Positions 18,056 through 63,547 of a DNA stretch of 64,000 nt are shown here, in pieces. The stretch spans positions 124,001 through 188,000 of the forward strand of contig NZ_CP053826.1 in NCBI RefSeq assembly GCF_013372125.1. The letters run 5' to 3'. Each line of letters opens with the position of its first letter. Position 1 is the first letter of the stretch. The notes beneath the pieces are model-generated. The model had not been told where the DNA came from. It did not search any database and saw only the letters and a list, made by a program, of their open reading frames with translations. The translations under genes and the position numbers were made by a program. Origin of the DNA: Campylobacter curvus. GTDB taxonomy: Bacteria; Campylobacterota; Campylobacteria; Campylobacterales; Campylobacteraceae.

Positions 18056-18133
18056 CGGGGTGTAGCGCAGGCTGGTTAGCGCATCTGGTTTGGGACCAGA
18101 GGGCCGAAGGTTCGAATCCTTTCACCCCGACCA
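18056..18133 (+). tRNA. tRNA-Pro (TGG)
   Basis: Cloverleaf with acceptor CGGGGTG/CACCCCG, anticodon loop TTTGGGA giving TGG, T-loop TTCGAAT and encoded CCA. First of five tandem tRNAs. Confidence 0.96.
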
Positions 18134-18142
18134 TTTCAAAAT

Positions 18143-18220
18143 GGTGAGTGTAGCTCAGTCGGTTAGAGCATCAGATTGTGGTCCTGAGGGTCGTGGGTTC
18201 GATTCCCATCACTCACCCCA
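18143..18220 (+). tRNA. tRNA-His (GTG)
   Basis: Acceptor GTGAGTG/CACTCAC preceded by the extra G(-1) opposite C73, which is the hallmark of tRNA-His; anticodon GTG in TTGTGGT; T-loop TTCGATT; CCA encoded. Confidence 0.96.
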
Positions 18221-18226
18221 TTTTGG

Positions 18227-18303
18227 GCGCTCGTAGCTCAATTGGATAGAGCGACAGACTTCGGATCTGTAGGTTATGGGTTCGACTCCTATCGGGCGCG
18301 CCA
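18227..18303 (+). tRNA. tRNA-Arg (TCG)
   Basis: Acceptor GCGCTCG pairs with CGGGCGC (one G-T wobble), anticodon stem ACAGA/TCTGT with loop CTTCGGA gives TCG; T-loop TTCGACT; CCA encoded. Confidence 0.95.
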
Positions 18304-18314
18304 CTTTGTTTAAT

Positions 18315-18391
18315 GCGCTCATAGCTCAGCTGGATAGAGCAACGGCCTTCTAAGCCGTAGGCCTCAGGTTCGAATCCTGATGGGCGTACCA
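18315..18391 (+). tRNA. tRNA-Arg (TCT)
   Basis: Acceptor GCGCTCA/TGGGCGT with wobble pairs, anticodon stem ACGGC/GCCGT with loop CTTCTAA gives TCT; T-loop TTCGAAT; CCA encoded. The 5' half is close to the preceding tRNA-Arg, suggesting duplication. Confidence 0.95.
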
Positions 18392-18406
18392 TTTATCATT
18401 GTTTGT

Positions 18407-18491
18407 GCGGATGTGGTGAAATTGGCAGACACACCAGACTTAGGATCTGGCGCCTCACGGCATGGAGGTTCAAGTCCTCTCATCCGCACCA
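18407..18491 (+). tRNA. tRNA-Leu (TAG)
   Basis: An 85-base class II tRNA with a long variable arm (GCCTCACGGC), acceptor GCGGATG/CATCCGC, anticodon loop CTTAGGA giving TAG, and encoded CCA. Confidence 0.95.
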
Positions 18492-18523: not shown

Positions 18524-18578
18524 TCCCAAATATACTCTTAAATTTTACTTTTGATTTTGTAATGTTTTTTATTTAAGG

Positions 18579-18778
18579 GGCTCTTTTATAATAAATCATT
18601 GATATTTGCTTCGCTTCTGCTTTGCAGTTGCAAACGAAGTGAAGTGTCTTGAAAAGCTGCGAGCAAAGCGAAGCAGAAACATCGGCGGTGATAAGCTCGC
18701 TAGTAAGGTTTGACTCGAATGCTGTTCGCATTCTCCTGCTTTGAAAGCTGAAAATCAATGAAATATTGTAGTAGAGCC
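18579..18778. repeat. Interspersed repeat copy A (MITE-like)
   Basis: A 200-base non-coding element between the tRNA cluster and pflA. Its ends are imperfect inverted repeats (GGCTCTTTTATAATA at the left, the complement of GGCTCTACTACAATA at the right; 20 of 25 bases match). They are the same ends as copy D at 41211-41402, including the inner block CATTGAT and the right-hand CTGAAAATCAATGAAATATTG. The middle carries its own inverted segments (GCTTCGCTTCTGC / GCGAAGCAGAA) and shares ATCGGCGGTGATA with the other copies. It has no plausible gene. The remaining bases of this gap show nothing else. Confidence 0.7.
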
Positions 18779-18818
18779 TTTTATTAAAGCGTTAATAAAT
18801 TTTTTGAAGCTGCAAATT

Positions 18819-34859: not shown

Positions 34860-36500
34860 TTACTCTTTTATCTTTTCTACCGCGTCTTTGCTGGCTATTT
34901 GCCGCTCGTCACCTACTAGCTCTCTTATCGCGCCGTCTTTTGCCAAGATGATACGATCTGCAACATCAAAATACGCGTCATCGTGGCTTATGGCGACTAT
35001 CGTAACGCCATTTTGCTTTAACATCGGTAAAATTTCGCGGTAAAATACGCGCTTGAATATCGGATCTTGATCCGCCGCCCATTCGTCAAGCACCAGCAGG
35101 CTACGATTTTCCAGTAGTGCGATGAGCAGGCTAAGACGCTTTCTTTGACCCTGAGAAAGAGCCGTGGTGCTCAGCCTTTGCTCGATGATCTGCACCTTTT
35201 TGTCTATCTCAAGCAGCTTTAAAAGCTCGTTCGCGTCTTTTTCGCTTGCAAATTTGCTCCCCTCGCCAAGCGTTTGCGAAAAGAGATAAAAGTCCGAAAA
35301 TATCGCGCTTACGTTTGACTGATAGCTGCGTAAATTTTCATCGTTCAGCCTCACGCCGTCCACTAAAATTTCACCGCTACTGGGGCGTAAAAGCCCGCAC
35401 AGTATGTTTGAAAACGTGCTTTTGCCGCTACCGTTTTTGCCTATGACAAATATCAGCTCACCGCGCTCTATGCGTAAATTCACATCCGTGAGGCTGAAAT
35501 TTTTATCCGGATAGCTAAAATTAACGTTTTTAAATTCTATGCTTTTCCACTGCTTGCTAAAGCTGTCAGTAAAGCCAAAGCTCTCTTTGAACGGGGCTAA
35601 ATTTAGATTTAGAATTTTATCCAAGCTCACTTTGGCGCTTAATGCCGTCGGGATGGAGGCTACCATGCTGATGAAAGAGCCTCTTAAAAATAGTATGGTC
35701 AGGCTCACGGTGACTGCCGTCTGCAGGCTCGCCCAGCCAAGACCGACGCACAAAAACACGCACATGCCGACAGCTCCAAGCAGCATGATGTTGGTAAAGT
35801 TATCCGAAAGTGCGTGATAAACGTCTGCTCGCACCATGCTTTGGCGCTTTTTCATGCCTATTTCGTTAAGCTCGTCAAAGCAAAGCTTGGCGCGGTGCTG
35901 ATTTAGCGTGAGTTCGCGGTGTCCTTCCACGACGTCGTTGTAGCTTTGCTGAAGCGCGTCGTCATCGCGTCTTGAGAGCGTGTAGTAGTGATGGATCTTT
36001 TTCATAAAAAACGCACTTAGCACCATCGTAGCCGCTATCCAGATCGCGACGAAGACGAAAAGCTTTGGCGAGATGTAGCATAGATAAATGCTCGAAGCCA
36101 CGATGAAAACGGAGCCTTGGATGAGCCCGGTCGCTGTCATGAAGGCAAATGTGATCGTTTTTATATCGTTGTTCAGGCTGGCTATGATCTTTGCTTTGCC
36201 GATCGCGTCTATCTGCGCGTTTGGCGTGTCTAAGACCTGCTTTACCAAGTGGCGTCTGATCTCGTAGATGAGCTTGTGACCAAAATTCGTAAGAGAGATG
36301 TTGGCATAGACCGAGGTTGCCAAAAACAGCAACAAAAGGCCGATGAACTGTACCGCCACCATCACGTCGAATTTCTGTGCGGCTAGTAGTTTTTCGTTTA
36401 TATAAGAGAGCACACCGATGCCAAAGCCGCTGAAAATGAACGTCAAAATGACGATTTTTATGATAGAAAATTTATTGTTTTTTATTAGAGTTTTTATCAT
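34860..36500 (-). CDS. ABC exporter, cyclic-peptide/siderophore type (SyrD/PvdE/YojI-like)
   Basis: A 546-residue fused half-transporter: six membrane helices in the first ~300 residues, then an ATPase with Walker A GKNGSGKST near 353, a divergent signature LSQGQRKRL near 448 and Walker B LLVLDEWAADQDP near 470. The DEWAADQDP wording is characteristic of the cyclic-peptide exporter group that includes SyrD, PvdE and microcin-exporter YojI. It would move a small peptide or siderophore into the periplasm. It is a single gene on the minus strand, divergent from the exported hydrolase; the adenylating cassette lies 1.5 kb away. Substrate unknown. Confidence 0.8.
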   Translation of the reverse strand: MIKTLIKNNKFSIIKIVILTFIFSGFGIGVLSYINEKLLAAQKFDVMVAVQFIGLLLLFLATSVYANISLTNFGHKLIYEIRRHLVKQVLDTPNAQIDAIGKAKIIASLNNDIKTITFAFMTATGLIQGSVFIVASSIYLCYISPKLFVFVAIWIAATMVLSAFFMKKIHHYYTLSRRDDDALQQSYNDVVEGHRELTLNQHRAKLCFDELNEIGMKKRQSMVRADVYHALSDNFTNIMLLGAVGMCVFLCVGLGWASLQTAVTVSLTILFLRGSFISMVASIPTALSAKVSLDKILNLNLAPFKESFGFTDSFSKQWKSIEFKNVNFSYPDKNFSLTDVNLRIERGELIFVIGKNGSGKSTFSNILCGLLRPSSGEILVDGVRLNDENLRSYQSNVSAIFSDFYLFSQTLGEGSKFASEKDANELLKLLEIDKKVQIIEQRLSTTALSQGQRKRLSLLIALLENRSLLVLDEWAADQDPIFKRVFYREILPMLKQNGVTIVAISHDDAYFDVADRIILAKDGAIRELVGDERQIASKDAVEKIKE

Positions 36501-36699
36501 CCGCTTACCTGTAAATTTTAAAAAATTTTAGCATAGCATACTTAAGTGCATTTAAAATAGACACGTATCAATAAAATAGATAGGCCGCCCGTTTAGCCCG
36601 ATTTAACGATCTTGCTAACTGATTTTGCATTTTAATTTGAGCGGTTTAAAATTTATAAGTTTGTGGTATGGTAAAACAAAATCCGCCAAAGGAGCAACC

Positions 36700-37584
36700 A
36701 TGAAAATACGAAATTTATTGATCGCGGCTTTTGTGACGATCGGCGTCAATGCGCTCGCTAAAGAAGCCAAGCATCATTATTTCGCACAAACATCTAAAAG
36801 CTATCAAAGTAAAACCGACTATGGAAATAACGAGGCTGTGGGGCATTATGTAAATTCTAAGGATACGAAAATTTATTATGAAATTTACGGCAAAGGAAGT
36901 CCGATCGTGCTGCTACACGGAGGGCTGGTAGGCTCGCCTGCTGATATGAGCGAGCTGGCAGACAAGCTAAGGGAAGATCGAAAAGTGATCTTGGTAGCCA
37001 CAAGAGGGCACGGCAGATCCCAAATAGGCGAGGTCGTGCCAAGCTTTGAGCAAAAGGCTGATGACATAAATGCCGTTTTAGACGATCTTGGTATCTCGAG
37101 GTCCGATATCATCGGCTTTAGCGACGGTGCTTATACGGCGTATCTTTTCGCTAAAAAATATCCGCAAAAGGTAAGAAACCTCGTAGCTATAGGTGCTGGA
37201 GTGTGGGAGAAGGGCTTTGTGCAGGGTAGTAGGGCGCAGATGAAGACGTTTGAGGATCTAAAAAATCTCGATAAGCGCTACTGGAACGAACAGCTTGATG
37301 GCGTCAGACCCGAGCCCGAGCGCATTTTGTTGTGGTTCGAGCAGGTCATGGAGTATTACGACTCGGCGTCAGTCGGCGAAGAGGTGTTTAAAAACGTAAA
37401 TGCAAAAACGCTCATGATAGTCGGAGAAAAGGACGCAAACGTACCTCTTGATACGGTCATCGCCGCTTATGAGATGCTGCCAAATGCGCAGCTTGGCATC
37501 GTCCCGAACGCTCCGCATCCCGTACTACTAACGGATTTTGACATAGTTTGGCCGATGATAAGTAAATTTCTTTCTAAGCAGTAA
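36700..37584 (+). CDS. Exported alpha/beta hydrolase
   Basis: A 294-residue protein. I start at ATG 36700 because AAAGGAG precedes it at the right distance and it gives a signal peptide (KIRNLLIAAFVTIGVNALA); the open frame 25 codons further up has no such site. The fold is clear: oxyanion region LLHGGLVG near 71, nucleophile Ser141 in GFSDGA, acid Asp245 in VGEKDANVP and His273 in NAPHP. The mature enzyme would act in the periplasm on an ester, lactone or amide. Upstream, the divergent ABC exporter suggests processing of the exported compound, but this is inference. Confidence 0.8.
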   Translation: MKIRNLLIAAFVTIGVNALAKEAKHHYFAQTSKSYQSKTDYGNNEAVGHYVNSKDTKIYYEIYGKGSPIVLLHGGLVGSPADMSELADKLREDRKVILVATRGHGRSQIGEVVPSFEQKADDINAVLDDLGISRSDIIGFSDGAYTAYLFAKKYPQKVRNLVAIGAGVWEKGFVQGSRAQMKTFEDLKNLDKRYWNEQLDGVRPEPERILLWFEQVMEYYDSASVGEEVFKNVNAKTLMIVGEKDANVPLDTVIAAYEMLPNAQLGIVPNAPHPVLLTDFDIVWPMISKFLSKQ

Positions 37585-37649: not shown

Positions 37650-37871
37650 TTTTAAAAACGTTGATGTGTGCACTTTTCTTGTCAGTGAAGTGCGAGAGTT
37701 AGTAGCCGTATAGCACGATTTTGTCTGTTTGGCTTTGTCTCGCCGCTCTTCAAGGCGCTTTGTGATTTGCACTCGCACAAATCAGTCGGTCTTATGGCTT
37801 TTTTGTTTCTGTCGCGAAAATCGCCGCCGATAAGTCCTCCAATAGATTTGACTTCGCTAGGACGTTTAAAA
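37650..37871. repeat. Interspersed repeat copy B (diverged)
   Basis: Non-coding stretch between the hydrolase and the GNAT gene. Ends are short imperfect inverted repeats (TTTTAAAAACGT / ACGTTTAAAA). It shares with copies C and D the block TATAGCACGATTTTG near 37710, GCGAAAATCGCC near 37814 and ATAGATTTGACTTCGCTAGG near 37843, with about 70 bases of extra unrelated sequence between. It is older or rearranged. From 37872 to the GNAT gene I see nothing further. A small hairpin (CCGGT/ACCGG, 37591-37607) lies between the hydrolase stop and this repeat. Confidence 0.55.
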
Positions 37872-38029
37872 TTTTACTTGGTATCTGTTGTTTTGCCTAG
37901 AGCACGAGAATTTAGATCTTGCCTTTACTTGCCCTTTTTTTGCCACCCATCTTGTAAAATTTGCCGCTTTTACAAAAACTAAATTCAGTCCAAATTTAAT
38001 TCAACCCAGCCGCACCAAATTCGCCAAAT

Positions 38030-38497
38030 TTACTCGCCCGTATAGATCATAATATCGCTCATTTCTGCGAAGCCAAGCTTTTCATAAAGCCCTTTTGCGG
38101 CGTTCGAGCTTTCCAGATAAATTTTCTCCACGCCCTGCTCGCGCGCTCGCTCTATGAGCCAGCACACGATCCGCCGCCCTATACCACGCCGCCTGGCATG
38201 CGCTCGCACGTAGATATTCATCAGATACGCGCACTGACCGCTTGGGTTTTCGGGCGAGGGTAGCTCGGTCTGAAAGCACACCCCGCCGCAGCCTAAAATT
38301 CGCCCCTCCTCATACGCAAAGCAGGCGACGTGCTCCCCACTAGCAAGCCTAGCCTCGTAGTAGCGGCGGTTTGCTTCGAGTAGCGCCGACACGTCCGCAT
38401 CGGGGGCTAGCTCAAACACCTCGCGCAACACCTCTTCGCGCAGGGCGAGCAGCAGGGGCATCTCATCCGCGTAAATTCGCCGCACCCTGGCCGTCAT
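38030..38497 (-). CDS. GNAT-family N-acetyltransferase
   Basis: A 155-residue GCN5-related acetyltransferase. The acetyl-CoA pyrophosphate loop is visible as RRRGIGRRIV near residue 101, preceded by the strand LMNIYVRAHA and followed by IYLESSNAAKGLYEKLGF, the usual motif B. It is translationally coupled to the adenylating enzyme (ATGA overlap) and so is the last gene of a three-gene cassette. A natural reading is that it acylates the amino group of the product or substrate of that enzyme. Base composition is clearly GC-richer than the flanking genes, suggesting transfer. Confidence 0.85.
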   Translation of the reverse strand: MTARVRRIYADEMPLLLALREEVLREVFELAPDADVSALLEANRRYYEARLASGEHVACFAYEEGRILGCGGVCFQTELPSPENPSGQCAYLMNIYVRAHARRRGIGRRIVCWLIERAREQGVEKIYLESSNAAKGLYEKLGFAEMSDIMIYTGE

Positions 38498-40251
38498 TTT
38501 CCGCCATCCTTCATCGGTATGGGCAGCTTCGCCGCGTCCGGCTTGCCGCTCGTATTTAGCGGCATTTGCGGCAGTCTAATGAAAAACTCCGGTATCATGA
38601 ACTCCGTTAAATTTCGCGCGAGCTCGCTTTTTAGCGCGCGAAGGCTTAGATTTTCGCCCTCCGCCACGACGTAGGCGACCATATACGCTAGCCCCACCTC
38701 ATCGGTAAATGCTCGCACGATCGCCTGGGACACGCCCGCACACCGCCGTAAGCGCGCCTCGACTTCGGCTACCTCCGTACGCTTGCCGCAGATCATCACC
38801 TGCGTGTCCTTGCGGTGCAAAAATGCGATGTCGCCGCTTGGCAGCAGGTAGCCAAGATCGCCGCTTCGATACATCCTGTCACCATCCGGCAAGCTCTCAA
38901 ACGCCCTGTTTTCCGCGTCGTGCTCGCCGATGTAGCCCTCCGATACGCCGTCACCGTAAATGCAAATTTCGCCCTTTTCGCCCGCCGGTAGCTCCTCTCC
39001 GTGCTCGTTTAAAATTTTGATCCGCGCCCCCTTGACCGCGCACCCGATCGGATATGTGCCGTCCTTTAAGACCGCGCCGCCGTTGCAGCGATAGTAGCTC
39101 GCGCACACCGTGGTTTCGGAGGGGCCGTAAGTGTTGTAAATTTCAGCTTGCGCCAGCAGGCGGCTAACATACGCTCCTCGCAGCACGTCGCCGCCGCTGA
39201 TGAGAAGCCGCAGGGATCGCGGGATGCGGGGCAGCTCGTTCATCTGCGCCAAAAGATAGGGAAAGCCGCTTAACATCGTTACATTGTGCCGCGCGACGAA
39301 TTTCATCAGCGCGCCGATATCCGCCTTGTCGTTTTGGCTCGCGATCGCCAGCGCCGCGCCGTTTAGCAAGCTCGCGAACACCTCCTCGACGAAGATGTCA
39401 AACGAGCACACGCTTTGTTGAAGCATCACGTCGCCTGCGCGCGGATGAAATTCGCTCGCAAACGCGCGCACGTAGTGGCAGACGTTGCGGTTCGTGACGC
39501 AAACGCCCTTTGGCCGCCCCGTCGTGCCCGAGGTGTAGAGCACATAAGCGGGCGCATCCGGACTTTGATTTTCGGGTTCATAATTTTGATCGCTTTGGTC
39601 GGTAAATTCGTGGATTTTATCGGCAAAATTTGACGGTTCGATTTGGTTTTCGGCGGTGCAAATTTGTTCGGTTTTGTCTTGCGGCGCGGCGTTTTGTAGC
39701 GTGAAGTTTTCAGCCGACACACCAGCCTCGCTTACTTCATATTCTTGCGCAGTCGCGGTCAAATTTATACTTGACTTTAGATTGTTTTCGTTTTTTAAAT
39801 CGCAAATTTTGTGTGCGATCCGCTCTGCGCTTGGCTCATTTTTATCGTAAAATTTATCATTTTGCGACCCGCCCGTACCCCCAAATTTACAAATTTCATC
39901 TATAAATTTTAGCTCAAAGCCCTCAAGCCGCGGTGCAAATTTGCGCTGCGTCACGATAAAATCGACATTCGCCTCGCTCATCATAGTAGCGATCCTGCCA
40001 GTCGGGAAATCGGGCTCTGCCGGGACATAGCGCGCGCCGTATTTTAGCACCGCAAATATCGTGGCGATCATCTGCGCGCCGTGGCTCATCACGATGCCCG
40101 CGCTGTTTAAATTTGACGGGAAATGCGCGGCGATAGCATCCACCATCTGGCTAAGCCGGGCAAACGTGAGCGTCCCGCCATCCTCGATGATCGCAGGCTC
40201 GTCCCCGTACGCCGCCACGACGTCTTTAAAAACCGAGTAAATCGTCTGCAT
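38494..40251 (-). CDS. Stand-alone amino-acid adenylating enzyme (NRPS A-domain/DltA-like)
   Basis: A 585-residue ANL-superfamily enzyme without attached carrier or condensation domain. Core motifs: YTSGTTGRPKG at 239-249, FDIFVEE at 284 (its Asp is where amino-acid adenylating domains bind the substrate amino group), NTYGPSETT near 374, YRSGDLG near 461 and NTSGKPD near 566 with the catalytic lysine. Residues ~124-232 are a polar, low-complexity insertion before the A3 motif, encoded by visibly AT-richer DNA. Start ATG 40249-40251 sits three bases after the esterase stop with AGGTG as binding site; an earlier in-frame ATG overlaps the esterase. No carrier protein gene is seen in the window. 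Confidence 0.85.
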   Translation of the reverse strand: MQTIYSVFKDVVAAYGDEPAIIEDGGTLTFARLSQMVDAIAAHFPSNLNSAGIVMSHGAQMIATIFAVLKYGARYVPAEPDFPTGRIATMMSEANVDFIVTQRKFAPRLEGFELKFIDEICKFGGTGGSQNDKFYDKNEPSAERIAHKICDLKNENNLKSSINLTATAQEYEVSEAGVSAENFTLQNAAPQDKTEQICTAENQIEPSNFADKIHEFTDQSDQNYEPENQSPDAPAYVLYTSGTTGRPKGVCVTNRNVCHYVRAFASEFHPRAGDVMLQQSVCSFDIFVEEVFASLLNGAALAIASQNDKADIGALMKFVARHNVTMLSGFPYLLAQMNELPRIPRSLRLLISGGDVLRGAYVSRLLAQAEIYNTYGPSETTVCASYYRCNGGAVLKDGTYPIGCAVKGARIKILNEHGEELPAGEKGEICIYGDGVSEGYIGEHDAENRAFESLPDGDRMYRSGDLGYLLPSGDIAFLHRKDTQVMICGKRTEVAEVEARLRRCAGVSQAIVRAFTDEVGLAYMVAYVVAEGENLSLRALKSELARNLTEFMIPEFFIRLPQMPLNTSGKPDAAKLPIPMKDGGK

Positions 40252-40253
40252 TT

Positions 40254-40949
40254 TCACCTGCCTAGTAGCCACGTAATGCCCGCTGCCGTGCGCTGGATGG
40301 CGTTTTGAAAGTGATTGCCCTCGTTTAGCTCGAAAGTCGTTTGGATACCGCTATTCGCGTAAAATCGCGCGATTTGCTCGGTGTTTTCCTGCACGCTTTG
40401 AAGCACGGGATTTTTCGCCATGCGCTCCTTGTCGCCCAGCGAAAAATATACGCACTCAGGCGGCGCCTTCATCTCGTGCGTGAGGGCGAATTCTTTAAAA
40501 TTTGTAAACCAAAGCGAGCCCGAGACGCTCGCAACCCGCGAGAAAAAGGGGCTTTGATAGAGCACGTAGAGCGCAAACAGCCCCGCTAGCGAATACCCCG
40601 CAAGCCCGCTCCAAGCCGCCCGTCCTTTGACGAGCTCCCCCGCTCGCGGCGCGATTTGCTCCGTCAAAAGCCGCAGATACTCATCCGCTCCGCCCGTGCA
40701 TGGCGCATCGCCCTTAAACAGCGGCGGCATCGCCCACGGTGACATATCGTGATCCCAGTTTAGACCCCCGATCGCCACGAGCGTGAAGTCCGCCGCGCAC
40801 CTCTCGCGCACCTCCGCCAGCACGCGCTCGCCCTCGTTTTCAAATGTGTTTAGATAGATGACGGGTCTGCCTGCCGCGTCGCTCGGATAGAGCGTGACCC
40901 TTTTGCTCTGCACGCTAAATTCGTGCTTTTCGTAGGTTTTGTTCTGCAT
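40254..40949 (-). CDS. IroE/Fes-like alpha/beta-hydrolase esterase
   Basis: A 231-residue hydrolase with nucleophile Ser120 in GYSLAGLFA, followed by RVASVSGSLWF, acid candidate Asp173 in LGDKE and His213 in EGNHFQNA. This layout is that of the COG2819 group, whose known members include IroE and BesA, hydrolases of trilactone siderophores. No signal peptide is present, so it acts in the cytoplasm. It is the first gene of the GC-rich cassette, preceded by AAGGAG nine bases from the ATG, and the adenylating gene follows after one ribosome-binding-site length. It could release or edit the product of the adenylating enzyme. Confidence 0.8.
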   Translation of the reverse strand: MQNKTYEKHEFSVQSKRVTLYPSDAAGRPVIYLNTFENEGERVLAEVRERCAADFTLVAIGGLNWDHDMSPWAMPPLFKGDAPCTGGADEYLRLLTEQIAPRAGELVKGRAAWSGLAGYSLAGLFALYVLYQSPFFSRVASVSGSLWFTNFKEFALTHEMKAPPECVYFSLGDKERMAKNPVLQSVQENTEQIARFYANSGIQTTFELNEGNHFQNAIQRTAAGITWLLGR

Positions 40950-40983
40950 TTTTCATCGCTCCTTGCCCGCTTGCTGGTAAAAA

Positions 40984-40989
40984 TTATAA
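40984..40989 (-). promoter_or_regulatory. -10 element of the esterase-adenylation-GNAT cassette, at edge of repeat C
   Basis: On the minus strand TTTTATAATTTTT, 35 bases before the esterase start, contains a perfect TATAAT. It abuts the terminal repeat of copy C, so the element supplies the upstream promoter region. No good -35 is visible. Confidence 0.45.
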
Positions 40990-41166
40990 AAGTGTTGATA
41001 GTCTTAAACGAACGCTTCGCAAATCTTATTTGCTCCACAAAGCGCCGAACATATAGCACGATTTGCGCGGTCAGCTACCGCTTCCCTGCAAATCGGCGGC
41101 GATAGTGTCTCTTCATAAGATTTGACTACGCTAAGGTATTTAAAATTTTAGAAATCAATACTTTTT
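40989..41166. repeat. Interspersed repeat copy C
   Basis: A 178-base element with short terminal inverted repeats AAAAGTGTTGAT / ATCAATACTTTT (11 of 12). Its core (41015-41140) aligns without long gaps to the core of copy D (41242-41369): GCTTCGCAAA at the left, CCGAACATATAGCACGATTT in the middle, AAATCGGCG and TTTGACT.CGCT at the right. The termini are unlike those of A and D, so it is a subfamily. It has no coding potential. Confidence 0.7.
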
Positions 41167-41210
41167 TAAAAACGGAGCCAAATTATACTAATATCGATAG
41201 ATAAAATCAA

Positions 41211-41402
41211 ATGGCTCTGTTACAATAAATCATTGACGCTTGCTTCGCAAACCTTGCTCGCTCCGCAAAGCACCGAACATATAGCACGATTTTCGCGTTC
41301 AGCCTTACGGCTTCTCTGAAAATCGGCGTTGATAGCGTCGCTTCACAAAGTTTGACTTCGCTTCGAACGCTGAAAATCAATGAAATATTGTAACAGAGCC
41401 AT
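41211..41402. repeat. Interspersed repeat copy D, MITE-like with near-perfect terminal inverted repeats
   Basis: A 192-base element that starts ATGGCTCTGTTACAATA and ends with its exact complement TATTGTAACAGAGCCAT. Counting 26 bases from each end, 24 match. The interior shares its core with copy C and the ends with copy A. It contains no gene, and no transposase with these ends is in the window. The ends and size are those of a non-autonomous miniature inverted-repeat transposable element. Only 44 bases separate it from copy C. Confidence 0.8.
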
Positions 41403-41408
41403 AAAATA

Positions 41409-41449
41409 AAATTTAGGCCGAGCCGTCAAAGCCGAGCGTGCCTAAATTT
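41409..41449 (-). terminator. Terminator of the HemN-like gene
   Basis: On the minus strand the arms AAATTTAGGC and GCCTAAATTT (perfect, 10 bases) enclose a GC-rich loop directly at the stop codon and are followed by TTTATTTTAT, the expected T-rich tail. Confidence 0.6.
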
Positions 41450-42812
41450 ACATAGCTGCACGTGGTTGGATGATGGCTCTTTCGTAGTCGACCTCGGTAT
41501 CTTCGCTCATGATGTGTAGGTTTTTGCTGCGTTTGATCTTTGCGTCATCCTTAAATATCGCGCGCACCTTGTCCATGCCCGCGTAAAAATCGCGCATCAG
41601 CACCACGCAAATGTAGCGGCCGAAAAATGTCGGCTTTATGCAGCCATTTTCCTCGTATATTGCATTTACGAGCTTTAGTAAATTTAGCTCGACAAATAGG
41701 TCTTTGTGAATGTTGGCTCGGTTGTTTCCGTTGTATTTTAGGATGTCGACGGCTCCGTCAAAAAGCTCCGTCAAAAAGATGTATTTTAGCCTTTCTTTTT
41801 TACTAAAGCCGCATTTTGCGATGACCGGGCTCGTGTGCTCTTTTATCTTGCGGCCGTAATCGAGCAGATTGAACGCATTTATCACGAGCTCGCCGTCAAG
41901 GAAGCTGAACGCTCCACTGCCAACGCCTACGTATTCGTGGTTTGAGCCCACGTATTCGTCTCGCATATCGGCTGAGCTTTGGTTTGAAAATGCCCAAGCG
42001 TTGCTTTGATGATACCTACCGCGGCTGAATTCATCTACGATGATCTCGTAAAATTCTCGCTCGTTATCGACGTTTGAGACGCCAAGCGACCTGGCGATAT
42101 TTTCTCTTGTCAGGTCTGATTTCATTAGCGGATAGAGCGTGATTTGCTGCGGGGCGATGGATTTTGAAATTTCGATATCATTTATGAGCTGCTCTTTTGT
42201 TTGATTTGGCAGGTTAAAGATGAGATCAAGACTAATGACCGGGAGGAAATTTAGCGCCTTTTCAAGCCTTGCTCGCACCTCTTTGGAGCTGCCGAATTTC
42301 TCAAATCTACCCACGCGCTTTAAGGTGTCGTCATCAAAGCTTTGTACGCCTACGCTTAGACGGTCGATAAGCCCGTCAAATCGCCTCAGGCTATCGGGTG
42401 AGATATGGTTTGGATCGCTTTCTGCAGAGATGTCCTCGATATCAAAAAGCTCCTTCGCAAGGCGTAGAGTTTTTTCGAGCTCTACCTCGTTTATCAGCGT
42501 AGTGCCGCCGCCTACGTAAAGCGAGCTAAAGTTAAATCCAGCGTCCTTTACCTGCCTCATCTCCTCGCGTAAATTTTCAAAATAGATCTTAGCCAGCTCT
42601 TGTTCGTAGTGGTATTTGTGAAACGAGCAGTAAGGGCAAAATGTGTGGCAAAACGGTACATGAGCGTAGAGCATGTATTTTTTGCCCTCGCGTGGCGTTT
42701 TGTTGTAGGTCGTAGTTAGGATGTCTATGTTAAATTCGTTGTATAAAGACTTTTGTATAGAGTTATGTGCGTAGTTTACGGCAAAGCTCTCGACAATACT
42801 TTTAAAACCCAT
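41448..42812 (-). CDS. HemN-like radical SAM oxidoreductase
   Basis: A 454-residue radical SAM enzyme with the cluster motif C-x3-C-x2-C at Cys55, Cys59 and Cys62 (HVPFCHTFCPYCSF), the GGGTT S-adenosylmethionine motif near 104 and the HemN-type pattern SVGVQSFDDDTLKRVGR. A C-terminal HemN_C-like domain follows. It belongs to the coproporphyrinogen-oxidase-like group, whose members include true HemN, heme chaperones (HemW) and heme-degrading ChuW/HutW. The N-terminal extension of ~45 residues before the cluster is longer than in HemW. It is a single gene with its own terminator; I would not assign a specific reaction. Confidence 0.75.
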   Translation of the reverse strand: MGFKSIVESFAVNYAHNSIQKSLYNEFNIDILTTTYNKTPREGKKYMLYAHVPFCHTFCPYCSFHKYHYEQELAKIYFENLREEMRQVKDAGFNFSSLYVGGGTTLINEVELEKTLRLAKELFDIEDISAESDPNHISPDSLRRFDGLIDRLSVGVQSFDDDTLKRVGRFEKFGSSKEVRARLEKALNFLPVISLDLIFNLPNQTKEQLINDIEISKSIAPQQITLYPLMKSDLTRENIARSLGVSNVDNEREFYEIIVDEFSRGRYHQSNAWAFSNQSSADMRDEYVGSNHEYVGVGSGAFSFLDGELVINAFNLLDYGRKIKEHTSPVIAKCGFSKKERLKYIFLTELFDGAVDILKYNGNNRANIHKDLFVELNLLKLVNAIYEENGCIKPTFFGRYICVVLMRDFYAGMDKVRAIFKDDAKIKRSKNLHIMSEDTEVDYERAIIQPRAAM

Positions 42813-62536: not shown

Positions 62537-63547
62537 TTGAACAACACAAAGATCATCATTTTACTCTGCGTGCTCGTCGTTATTTTCGCGTTTGCGTCGA
62601 TCGGCGCGGGCAGATACGGGCTAAATTTCACCCAGATAGCGCAAAATTTACAGACATTTTTCTTTGGCGGCGAGCCCGCAGACGCGCAGGCCTATACTAT
62701 CATCACGCAGATACGCTTGCCGCGCATACTTTTTGCCCTGCTCGTGGGGGCTGCGCTTGCCGCTAGCGGCGCGGTGTATCAAGGGCTCTTTCGCAACCCT
62801 CTCGTCTCGCCCGATATACTTGGCGTCAGCAGTGGTGCGGCGGTGGGAGCTAGCATCGCGATCATCTTGTCGCTGCCAAATTTTGGCGTGCAGGTCATGG
62901 CGTTTGCTTTTGGGCTGGGCGCGGTCGTGCTGGTCGTATTTCTAAGCTCGCTCATCGCAAAAGGTAAGATAAACGTGCTCGTGATGGTGCTTTGCGGCGT
63001 CGTGATCTCCTCGCTTTTTGGAGCGGCTAGCTCGCTGCTTAAATTTCTAGCTGATAGCGACGATAAGCTGCCTGAGATCACGTTTTGGCTCATGGGCAGC
63101 CTCGCTCGCACGGGCGGATACGCAAACGTCGCCTACCTGGCGTGCGTGGTCGCGCTTTGCTTCGTGCCGCTTTTTTTACTGCGCTGGCGGCTAAACATCC
63201 TGGCATTTGGCGAGGACGAGGCCAAGAGCATGGGTGTGAATGTGAAATTTTACAACTTCGTCATCATCTGCGCATCCACGCTTTTGACGGCTAGCTGCGT
63301 GGCGTTTTGTGGCATCGTGGGCTGGATAGGACTCGTGATCCCGCACATCGCGCGATTTGCGGTGGGAGCGGACTTTAAGACGCTACTACCAGTCTCGATG
63401 CTAGGCGGCGGGCTGTTTTTGCTCGTCGTCGATACCGCCGCACGTAGCATACTAGCCAGCGAAGTGCCTCTTGGCGTGCTCACATCGCTCGTTGGCGCAC
63501 CGGTCTTCATCTATCTGCTTTATCGTAGCAAAAAGGGCTGGCTGTGA
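62537..63547 (+). CDS. FecCD/BtuC-type ABC permease
   Basis: A 336-residue permease with about ten helices, starting with TTG after AAAAAGGAAAA. Characteristic stretches are LPRILFALLVGAALAASGAV, NPLVSPDILGVSSGAAVGAS and GWIGLVIPHIARFAVG. The family imports siderophores, heme or cobalamin from a periplasmic binding protein. Its stop overlaps the ATPase start (GTGA). Confidence 0.92.
   Translation: MNNTKIIILLCVLVVIFAFASIGAGRYGLNFTQIAQNLQTFFFGGEPADAQAYTIITQIRLPRILFALLVGAALAASGAVYQGLFRNPLVSPDILGVSSGAAVGASIAIILSLPNFGVQVMAFAFGLGAVVLVVFLSSLIAKGKINVLVMVLCGVVISSLFGAASSLLKFLADSDDKLPEITFWLMGSLARTGGYANVAYLACVVALCFVPLFLLRWRLNILAFGEDEAKSMGVNVKFYNFVIICASTLLTASCVAFCGIVGWIGLVIPHIARFAVGADFKTLLPVSMLGGGLFLLVVDTAARSILASEVPLGVLTSLVGAPVFIYLLYRSKKGWL

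Follow-up and report, generated by a model that had tools for sequence, protein, structure and literature searches.

A 64,000-nucleotide stretch of the Campylobacter curvus genome (positions 124001-188000 of a single-contig genome of 1,974,918 bases, NZ_CP053826.1, here G000), hereafter referred to as the window, carries three adjacent genes encoding a GNAT acetyltransferase, a stand-alone amino-acid adenylation (A) enzyme and an IroE-like serine hydrolase. Judging from the sequence comparisons presented below, this cassette represents a copy, acquired by horizontal transfer, of a rare, widespread A plus GNAT module, in which the IroE-like hydrolase is a frequent third gene. We tentatively read the module as a carrier-independent system for adenylation and N-acetylation with an accessory hydrolase, an account to which we give somewhat less than an even chance, and its A protein as a putative A-domain enzyme now independent of carriers. 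The cassette has the following features, in window coordinates:

38030..38497, minus strand: GNAT acetyltransferase, 155 amino acids (aa) (PF00583, E 3.6e-19)
38494..40272, minus strand: stand-alone amino-acid adenylation (A) enzyme, 592 aa, with a GTG start or an ATG start at 40251 (PF00501, E 7.5e-70, and PF13193)
39565..39882, minus strand: AT-rich, low-complexity insert of 106 aa within the A gene, in the loop before the A3 P-loop
40254..40949, minus strand: IroE/BES/EstB-like serine hydrolase (esterase), 231 aa (PF00756, E 2.1e-7)

The esterase, A and GNAT genes form a tight minus-strand operon, in which start and stop codons overlap or are separated by a few bases. The first-pass annotation described these genes as GC-richer than the DNA on both sides and suggested an examination of GC content and codon usage. 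The three genes were indeed found to have GC contents of 0.588 (GNAT), 0.553 (A) and 0.576 (esterase), and GC contents at third codon positions (GC3) of 0.686, 0.663 and 0.698, respectively, as against a mean of 0.549 (standard deviation 0.061, maximum 0.671) for the 46 other open reading frames (ORFs) of at least 150 aa in the window, only one of which (62537-63547) attains the GC3 of the A gene. In terms of codon-usage distance, the GNAT and esterase genes ranked second and third among the window ORFs of this size and the A gene lay outside the top ten. The 106-aa insert has a GC content of 0.434, versus 0.578 for the remainder of the A gene. It is missing from 13 other alignment rows, a shorter insert occurring close by in two of them, and its interpretation as a dispersed element was rejected, as there is no second copy in the genome. 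The GC-richness of the cassette is therefore real, yet composition alone is modest evidence of transfer.

The combination of genes had not initially been recognised as a pathway, but the search of other genomes revealed it to be a recurrent module. Thirty loci were compared (the window, the copy in the Campylobacter genome G005, L043-L054, L082-L093 and L095-L098), including two near-identical pairs (L044/L045 and L046/L098) and one close pair (L050/L052); L092, in which the A gene is in pieces, is counted among these loci and excluded from the 29 aligned A domains. A GNAT gene adjoins the A gene in all 30 loci, that of L084 being only a 50-residue remnant, and an esterase match of more than 50 bits was obtained in 23. 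Among the seven loci without such a match, L043 holds a C-terminal remnant and L093 is a partial contig. In three loci, the A and GNAT proteins are fused in a single frame (L048, 642 aa; L050, 673 aa; L052, 672 aa), with 22, 53 and 52 residues, respectively, between the A10 motif and the first GNAT motif, a distance shorter than a carrier domain. The other recurrent neighbours are an HxlR gene (10/30 loci), a UvrA-like gene (4/30) and a gene for radical SAM mobile pair protein B (3/30; TIGR04470, 423 bits in L048, cut-off 410); none of these three kinds of gene was found at the two Campylobacter or six Bacteroidota loci. An IS1595-family transposase gene lies near the G005 copy (L034 6233-6934). 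A second A copy (43%), without a GNAT nearby and left uncounted, is present in the Bacteroidales genome G414 (L094 5496-7058); its P-loop and pocket Asp/Glu appear by eye to be changed, and it may be catalytically dead. No published description of such a module was found in a literature search that left most subscription journals outside its coverage.

Within the genus, the module is patchily distributed. The window A protein has a sole close relative among 41 genomes (its own included), in G005 (61% identity, 478 bits), and the remaining same-genus matches reach at most 132 bits. In 48 genus genomes, again including its own, the GNAT has one strong relative (G005, 44%, 125 bits) and the esterase has two (G058, 47%; G005, 38%), the other esterase matches not exceeding 38 bits. 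The G058 gene is a lone esterase (L036 9754-10470) located near an NMT1-like ABC transport gene. With a profile built from 14 A rows, five of 397 Campylobacterota genomes gave a match at 1e-90, and only G000 and G005 reached 787-829 bits; the other three matches (312-341 bits) are located within frames of 2,204-4,356 codons that resemble nonribosomal peptide synthetases (NRPSs). A contig scan yielded 12 loci from Lachnospiraceae, other Clostridia or Bacillota, Ileibacterium, Treponema, Muribaculaceae and Bacteroides. The A profile was also matched in at least 12 of 397 genomes from the family of the L043 genome, at least four of 393 from the order of the L049 genome and at least two of 241 from the order of the L046 genome, the centre genome being counted in each case; these genome counts are lower bounds, as three candidates per genome were scored for Campylobacterota, three for the L043 family, and up to four and up to six for the two orders. 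By these matches, the A plus GNAT module is rare yet widespread, with members in Campylobacterota, Bacillota, Bacteroidota and Spirochaetota.

Relatives of the module were not found in viral contigs, and the trio was unmatched in PADLOC. The L048 fusion gave weak matches to 37 phage records (23-32% identity), nearly all restricted to the A domain, one of which (25%) spans 84% of the query; the G005 A domain matched 61 plasmid records, all below 60% identity, and the 15 rows for which names were shown were NRPSs. A phage, plasmid or defence link was therefore rejected.

The phylogenetic analysis of the A domains was performed with 29 rows, leaving out the L094 paralogue and two NRPS outgroup rows with branches of 5-10, which were probably misframed. 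The window A protein fell within a clade (100/98) with L086, L087, L089, L093, L050 and L052, and each locus of this clade having an esterase shows the order esterase-A-GNAT. The G005 protein belonged to a different clade (97/96), in which each locus having an esterase shows the order A-GNAT-esterase. The window copy nests with Lachnospiraceae of the same gene order. Trees constrained to join the two Campylobacter rows could be rejected with the A data (p 2.4e-5) and with the esterase data (p 5.7e-66); since both reject sister copies, there were at least two separate arrivals in Campylobacter, most likely from Bacillota. The A genes of the window's clade mates have a GC content of 0.46-0.58, and the trio genes of G005 are close in composition to their surroundings (0.42-0.47 vs 0.457). 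The distances of the A, GNAT and esterase proteins correlate (r 0.64, 0.62 and 0.49; none of 5000 permutations as high, species history being uncontrolled), as expected of a unit inherited together. A cassette universal in the genus, vertically inherited and of normal composition would have contradicted the islet proposed in the first-pass annotation; the cassette was instead found to be patchy, transferred and GC-rich.

By its profile score, the A protein is an amino-acid adenylation domain: the curated cut-off of TIGR01733 (317.4 bits) was exceeded by the window protein (319.7 bits) and by L048 (352.8 bits), and the score against the DltA equivalog TIGR01734 was 222 bits, for a cut-off of 559.85. 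It had also been considered that the A domain might turn out to be an already known enzyme tied to a particular partner, and no such enzyme emerged from the family searches made. Pocket positions, in GrsA numbering, were counted along the alignments, and residue spacing in Pls_A and PosA served as a check. The pocket code is DIESIGTVCK in the window and D-I-E-S/D-I/V-G-T-V-C-K in the family, with D235, I236, E239, G301, T322, V330 and C331 invariant in all 29 rows, Ser in 26 rows and Asp in three at position 278, and Ile in 27 and Val in two at position 299. The residues for the amine and the carboxylate of an amino acid are both present, Asp235 in every row and Lys517 in 28, the remaining row being truncated. 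A literature search by the letters of specificity codes, including the bacitracin lysine code, returned nothing. In Pls_A, the epsilon-amine of lysine is held by Glu217, Ser256 and Thr301 (PMC11253843); by spacing, Glu217 and Ser256 correspond exactly to positions 239 and 278, and Thr301 corresponds to position 322 to within one. For PosA, which uses ornithine (code DMEHNGTVSK), Asp217 and Glu221 are described as essential and position 236 as tracking chain length, with Phe for diaminopropionate or diaminobutyrate, Met for ornithine and Ala for lysine (PMC10522769). The pocket is predicted to accept ornithine or lysine, and Ile236 suggests one of these two while leaving the choice between them undecided.

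The stand-alone A domain was initially described, together with the GNAT and the IroE-like esterase, as lacking a carrier or condensation domain beside it, and this description holds. The lysine of motif A8 (Lys434), described in PMC11253843 as serving the thiolation half-reaction, is replaced with Met in all 29 module A domains. It is Lys in all 13 control rows, corresponding to 12 distinct Campylobacterota A domains, stand-alone or from NRPSs (L003 and L057 coincide in position and L013 contributed none), and Ile in all four acyl-CoA-ligase-like rows. A motif search near the module revealed no credible carrier ORF, carriers elsewhere in the genomes not being searched for; this search is limited in power, because among the control loci it was convincing only in L010. 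The PF00668 condensation domain was not found in 11 of the 14 trio genomes, including G000 and G005, and genes of the phosphopantetheinyl transferase (PPTase) family were present in 13 of the 14, with one in G005. The module thus departs from an NRPS module in its A8 residue, in its lack of a condensation domain and of a carrier nearby, and in the absence of room for a carrier in the fusions.

The GNAT protein matches PF00583 with 69.6 bits (cut-off 20.7). Its motif PSPDN is present in 26 of 28 rows and replaced with PSPEN in two, one of which is the window protein, and its closest solved relative (3mgd) is named just as a predicted acetyltransferase. The esterase profile matches BES (2qm0), IroE (2gzr), the fungal EstB (6gun) and ferric enterobactin esterase, with alignments mainly in the nucleophile region. 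The Ser motif G-x-S-x-x-G is conserved in 24 of 24 rows and GNH in 22 of 24, so the protein is related by sequence, including its Ser and His motifs, to the IroE-like siderophore esterases; no signal peptide was apparent by eye.

In a carrier-independent module of this kind, the A domain would form ornithyl-AMP or lysyl-AMP, and an amine or hydroxyl acceptor would receive the activated acyl group straight from the enzyme, with no carrier involved, unless the group cyclised to a lactam. Positioned beside the A domain, the GNAT would use acetyl-CoA to acetylate an amino group of the same intermediate or product, and the hydrolase would cleave an ester or amide derived from the product for release, recycling or detoxification. 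The first-pass idea of an amino acid activated and N-acylated is upheld as an inference. The stand-alone A domain of streptothricin biosynthesis, described by Maruyama et al. in 2012, reportedly uses beta-lysine and forms amide bonds itself. The module resembles this system in having a stand-alone diamino-acid A domain and in that acetyltransferases act on the beta-lysine of the antibiotic; it differs in that a full antibiotic pathway is present there, whereas here no other biosynthetic gene recurs and the A and GNAT proteins are fused in three loci. With Pls and PosA it shares pocket residues Asp235 and Glu239, and with PosA also Thr322. However, these synthetases of cationic homopoly-amino acids have their own carrier and membrane domains (PMC10522769), and neither was found here.

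Several observations weigh against this interpretation. The esterase is missing in seven of the 30 loci, and the GNAT may act on the enzyme instead of the product. The substrate prediction rests on about ten residues, among which Ile236 is neither the Ala of lysine synthetases nor the Met of ornithine synthetases. The missing A8 lysine points to an inability to carry out thiolation without proving it. Condensation domains are present elsewhere in three of the 14 trio genomes, and G000 has two PPTase-family (PF01648) hits outside the window, at contig positions 484246-484437 and 827479; the first-pass annotation had proposed looking for such a gene elsewhere. Absences are less sure because many trio genomes are metagenome-assembled. 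As for transfer, the short GNAT tree is compatible with a single Campylobacter origin (p 0.32).

The strongest rival, which we consider unlikely, is regulatory acetylation, in which the GNAT would switch off its partner A domain by acetylating K517, the catalytic lysine of motif A10. AcuA, whose gene neighbours acsA, associates with AcsA in a complex and acetylates its A10 residue Lys549 (PMC11255334), so there is a precedent for a GNAT coupled to an acyl-adenylate-forming (ANL-family) enzyme, and lysine acetylation blocking aminoacyl-AMP formation has been described for an NRPS (PMC8007912). Co-occurrence and A-GNAT fusion would fit such a function equally well. However, AcsA makes acetyl-CoA (PMC11255334), whereas the module has an amino-acid pocket and a direct fusion in three loci, and a permanent fusion in cis would tend towards self-inactivation. 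No recurrent deacetylase was seen among the neighbours by eye (first 45-60 residues, no profile search), sirtuin-like ORFs being present only in L091, which has two, and the PSPDN or PSPEN motif kept in 28 of 28 GNATs could be a site for a specific acceptor. It is very improbable, in our view, that the A domain loads an unlinked carrier, whether the acyl carrier protein of fatty-acid synthesis or another, as an ordinary type II NRPS fragment. Stand-alone A domains of the DltA type do load an unlinked carrier, and DltA resembles the module A protein in being a stand-alone amino-acid A domain; the two PF01648 hits in the window genome would also agree with a carrier. The module A protein differs from DltA in scoring far below the TIGR01734 cut-off, and no DltC-like carrier was seen near the module. 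The A8 Met (29/29 vs Lys in 13/13 control rows), the outcome of the carrier motif search near the module, the GNAT fusions without a carrier and the failure to find a condensation domain in 11 of 14 genomes all argue against this possibility.

A resistance or detoxification cassette, in which a natural product or electrophile would be inactivated under HxlR control from mobile DNA, is quite unlikely. The HxlR, UvrA-like and radical SAM mobile pair protein B genes of 10, four and three loci, respectively, and the transposase gene near the G005 copy would be in keeping with such a role, but the first three are those not found in the two Campylobacter and six Bacteroidota loci, activation of an amino acid by an intact A domain would be no obvious resistance step, and PADLOC did not match the trio. 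Siderophore-type metabolism is improbable: an ornithine-based ester would be made or imported, N-acetylated and hydrolysed, as by SidD, SidG and EstB for triacetylfusarinine C (PMC10500206). The likeness lies in the kind of step, namely the joining of ornithine units, N-acetylation and ester hydrolysis by an IroE-like esterase, and it is strengthened by siderophore esterases, EstB among them, being the best solved relatives of the module esterase and by the lone G058 esterase lying beside an NMT1-like ABC transport gene. However, SidD, an NRPS, uses ornithine that has already undergone hydroxylation and acylation (PMC10500206), whereas no hydroxylase recurs at the module. Nor was an N-hydroxylase, receptor or transporter recurrent in an all-against-all BLAST of 14 loci or, by eye, in further loci, and the esterase is absent from seven of the 30 loci. 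The hosts of the module, which are mostly anaerobes, also count against a siderophore.

The genes flanking the cassette in the window provide evidence of insertion. They are:

34860..36500, minus strand: ABC exporter of the cyclic-peptide type (TIGR01194, 343.3 bits, cut-off 286.2)
36625..37584, plus strand: alpha/beta hydrolase gene (PF00561), with a signal-like N-terminus by eye
41448..42812, minus strand: HemN-like radical SAM gene (NF006385)

The HemN-like gene has a strong match in 47 of the 48 genus genomes and a weak match in G061, a genome that is 68% complete. The region around it was fetched from seven relatives. In G012 (L105), it directly adjoins the ABC exporter plus nuoAB, and the trio is absent; in G011 (L102) and G014 (L099), one different gene lies between the HemN-like gene and the exporter, nuoAB not being found in L099. 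The ABC gene was not found within the stretch fetched around the HemN-like gene in G022, G004, G063 and G005. Comparison with these relatives thus shows both the trio and the alpha/beta hydrolase gene to be additions at this site. The transferred islet of the first-pass annotation, for which presence or absence in related strains had been proposed as a check, is thus upheld by the patchy distribution, by the two Campylobacter copies not being sisters and by the adjacent flanks, without the trio, in G012. The ABC exporter was rejected as a partner of the module, as it is present at the site in three of the seven relatives without the trio there, and the alpha/beta hydrolase was rejected because neither the other trio loci nor the site loci of the seven relatives contain a match to it.

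The cassette was also said to be bounded by a repeat B on one side and repeats C and D on the other:

37816..37876, no strand assigned: repeat B, a 61-nt remnant of a C-type element
about 40975..41179, no strand assigned: repeat C, a related element resembling a miniature inverted-repeat transposable element (MITE-like), with ends placed by eye
41211..41402, no strand assigned: repeat D, a complete MITE-like element of ~190 bp with 26-nt terminal inverted repeats

The repeats on both sides are real, but they are not dedicated borders, since they belong to a dispersed family. A census in which 40 of 137 candidates were scored, and which is thus a lower bound, gave 53 match rows corresponding to at least 40 genome places by manual count, the site itself included. 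The element ends, compared in C, D and 20 other fetched copy-bearing stretches, resemble GGCTCTGTTATAATAAATCATTGA, and an exact 8-bp duplication flanks nine of 22 element copies examined, with none at D and C not being assessable. A fragmentary MITE-like match is located at 18540-18803, directly behind five tRNA genes (18056-18491). Because the element is dispersed at many genome places, repeats at the borders of the cassette are weak evidence by themselves, and a repeat-bordered mobile element as a special structure was rejected, B being merely a 61-nt remnant. The copies flanking the cassette may reflect the route by which the DNA entered or survived in the genome, and they do not define a mobile unit.

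A more ambitious extension of the carrier-independent interpretation, to which we would give only a minor chance, is that one enzyme or tight pair activates and N-acetylates ornithine or lysine, yielding a lactam, amide or ester that would act as a signal or antimetabolite across four phyla, with its own hydrolase as an off-switch. The module is directly testable because it is small, with three genes, or two when fused. A domains are almost everywhere read as parts of carrier-based assembly lines. If the carrier-independent reading is true, the module would offer a pared-down way of making small amino-acid metabolites without a carrier, moving between distant bacteria of the gut and mouth.

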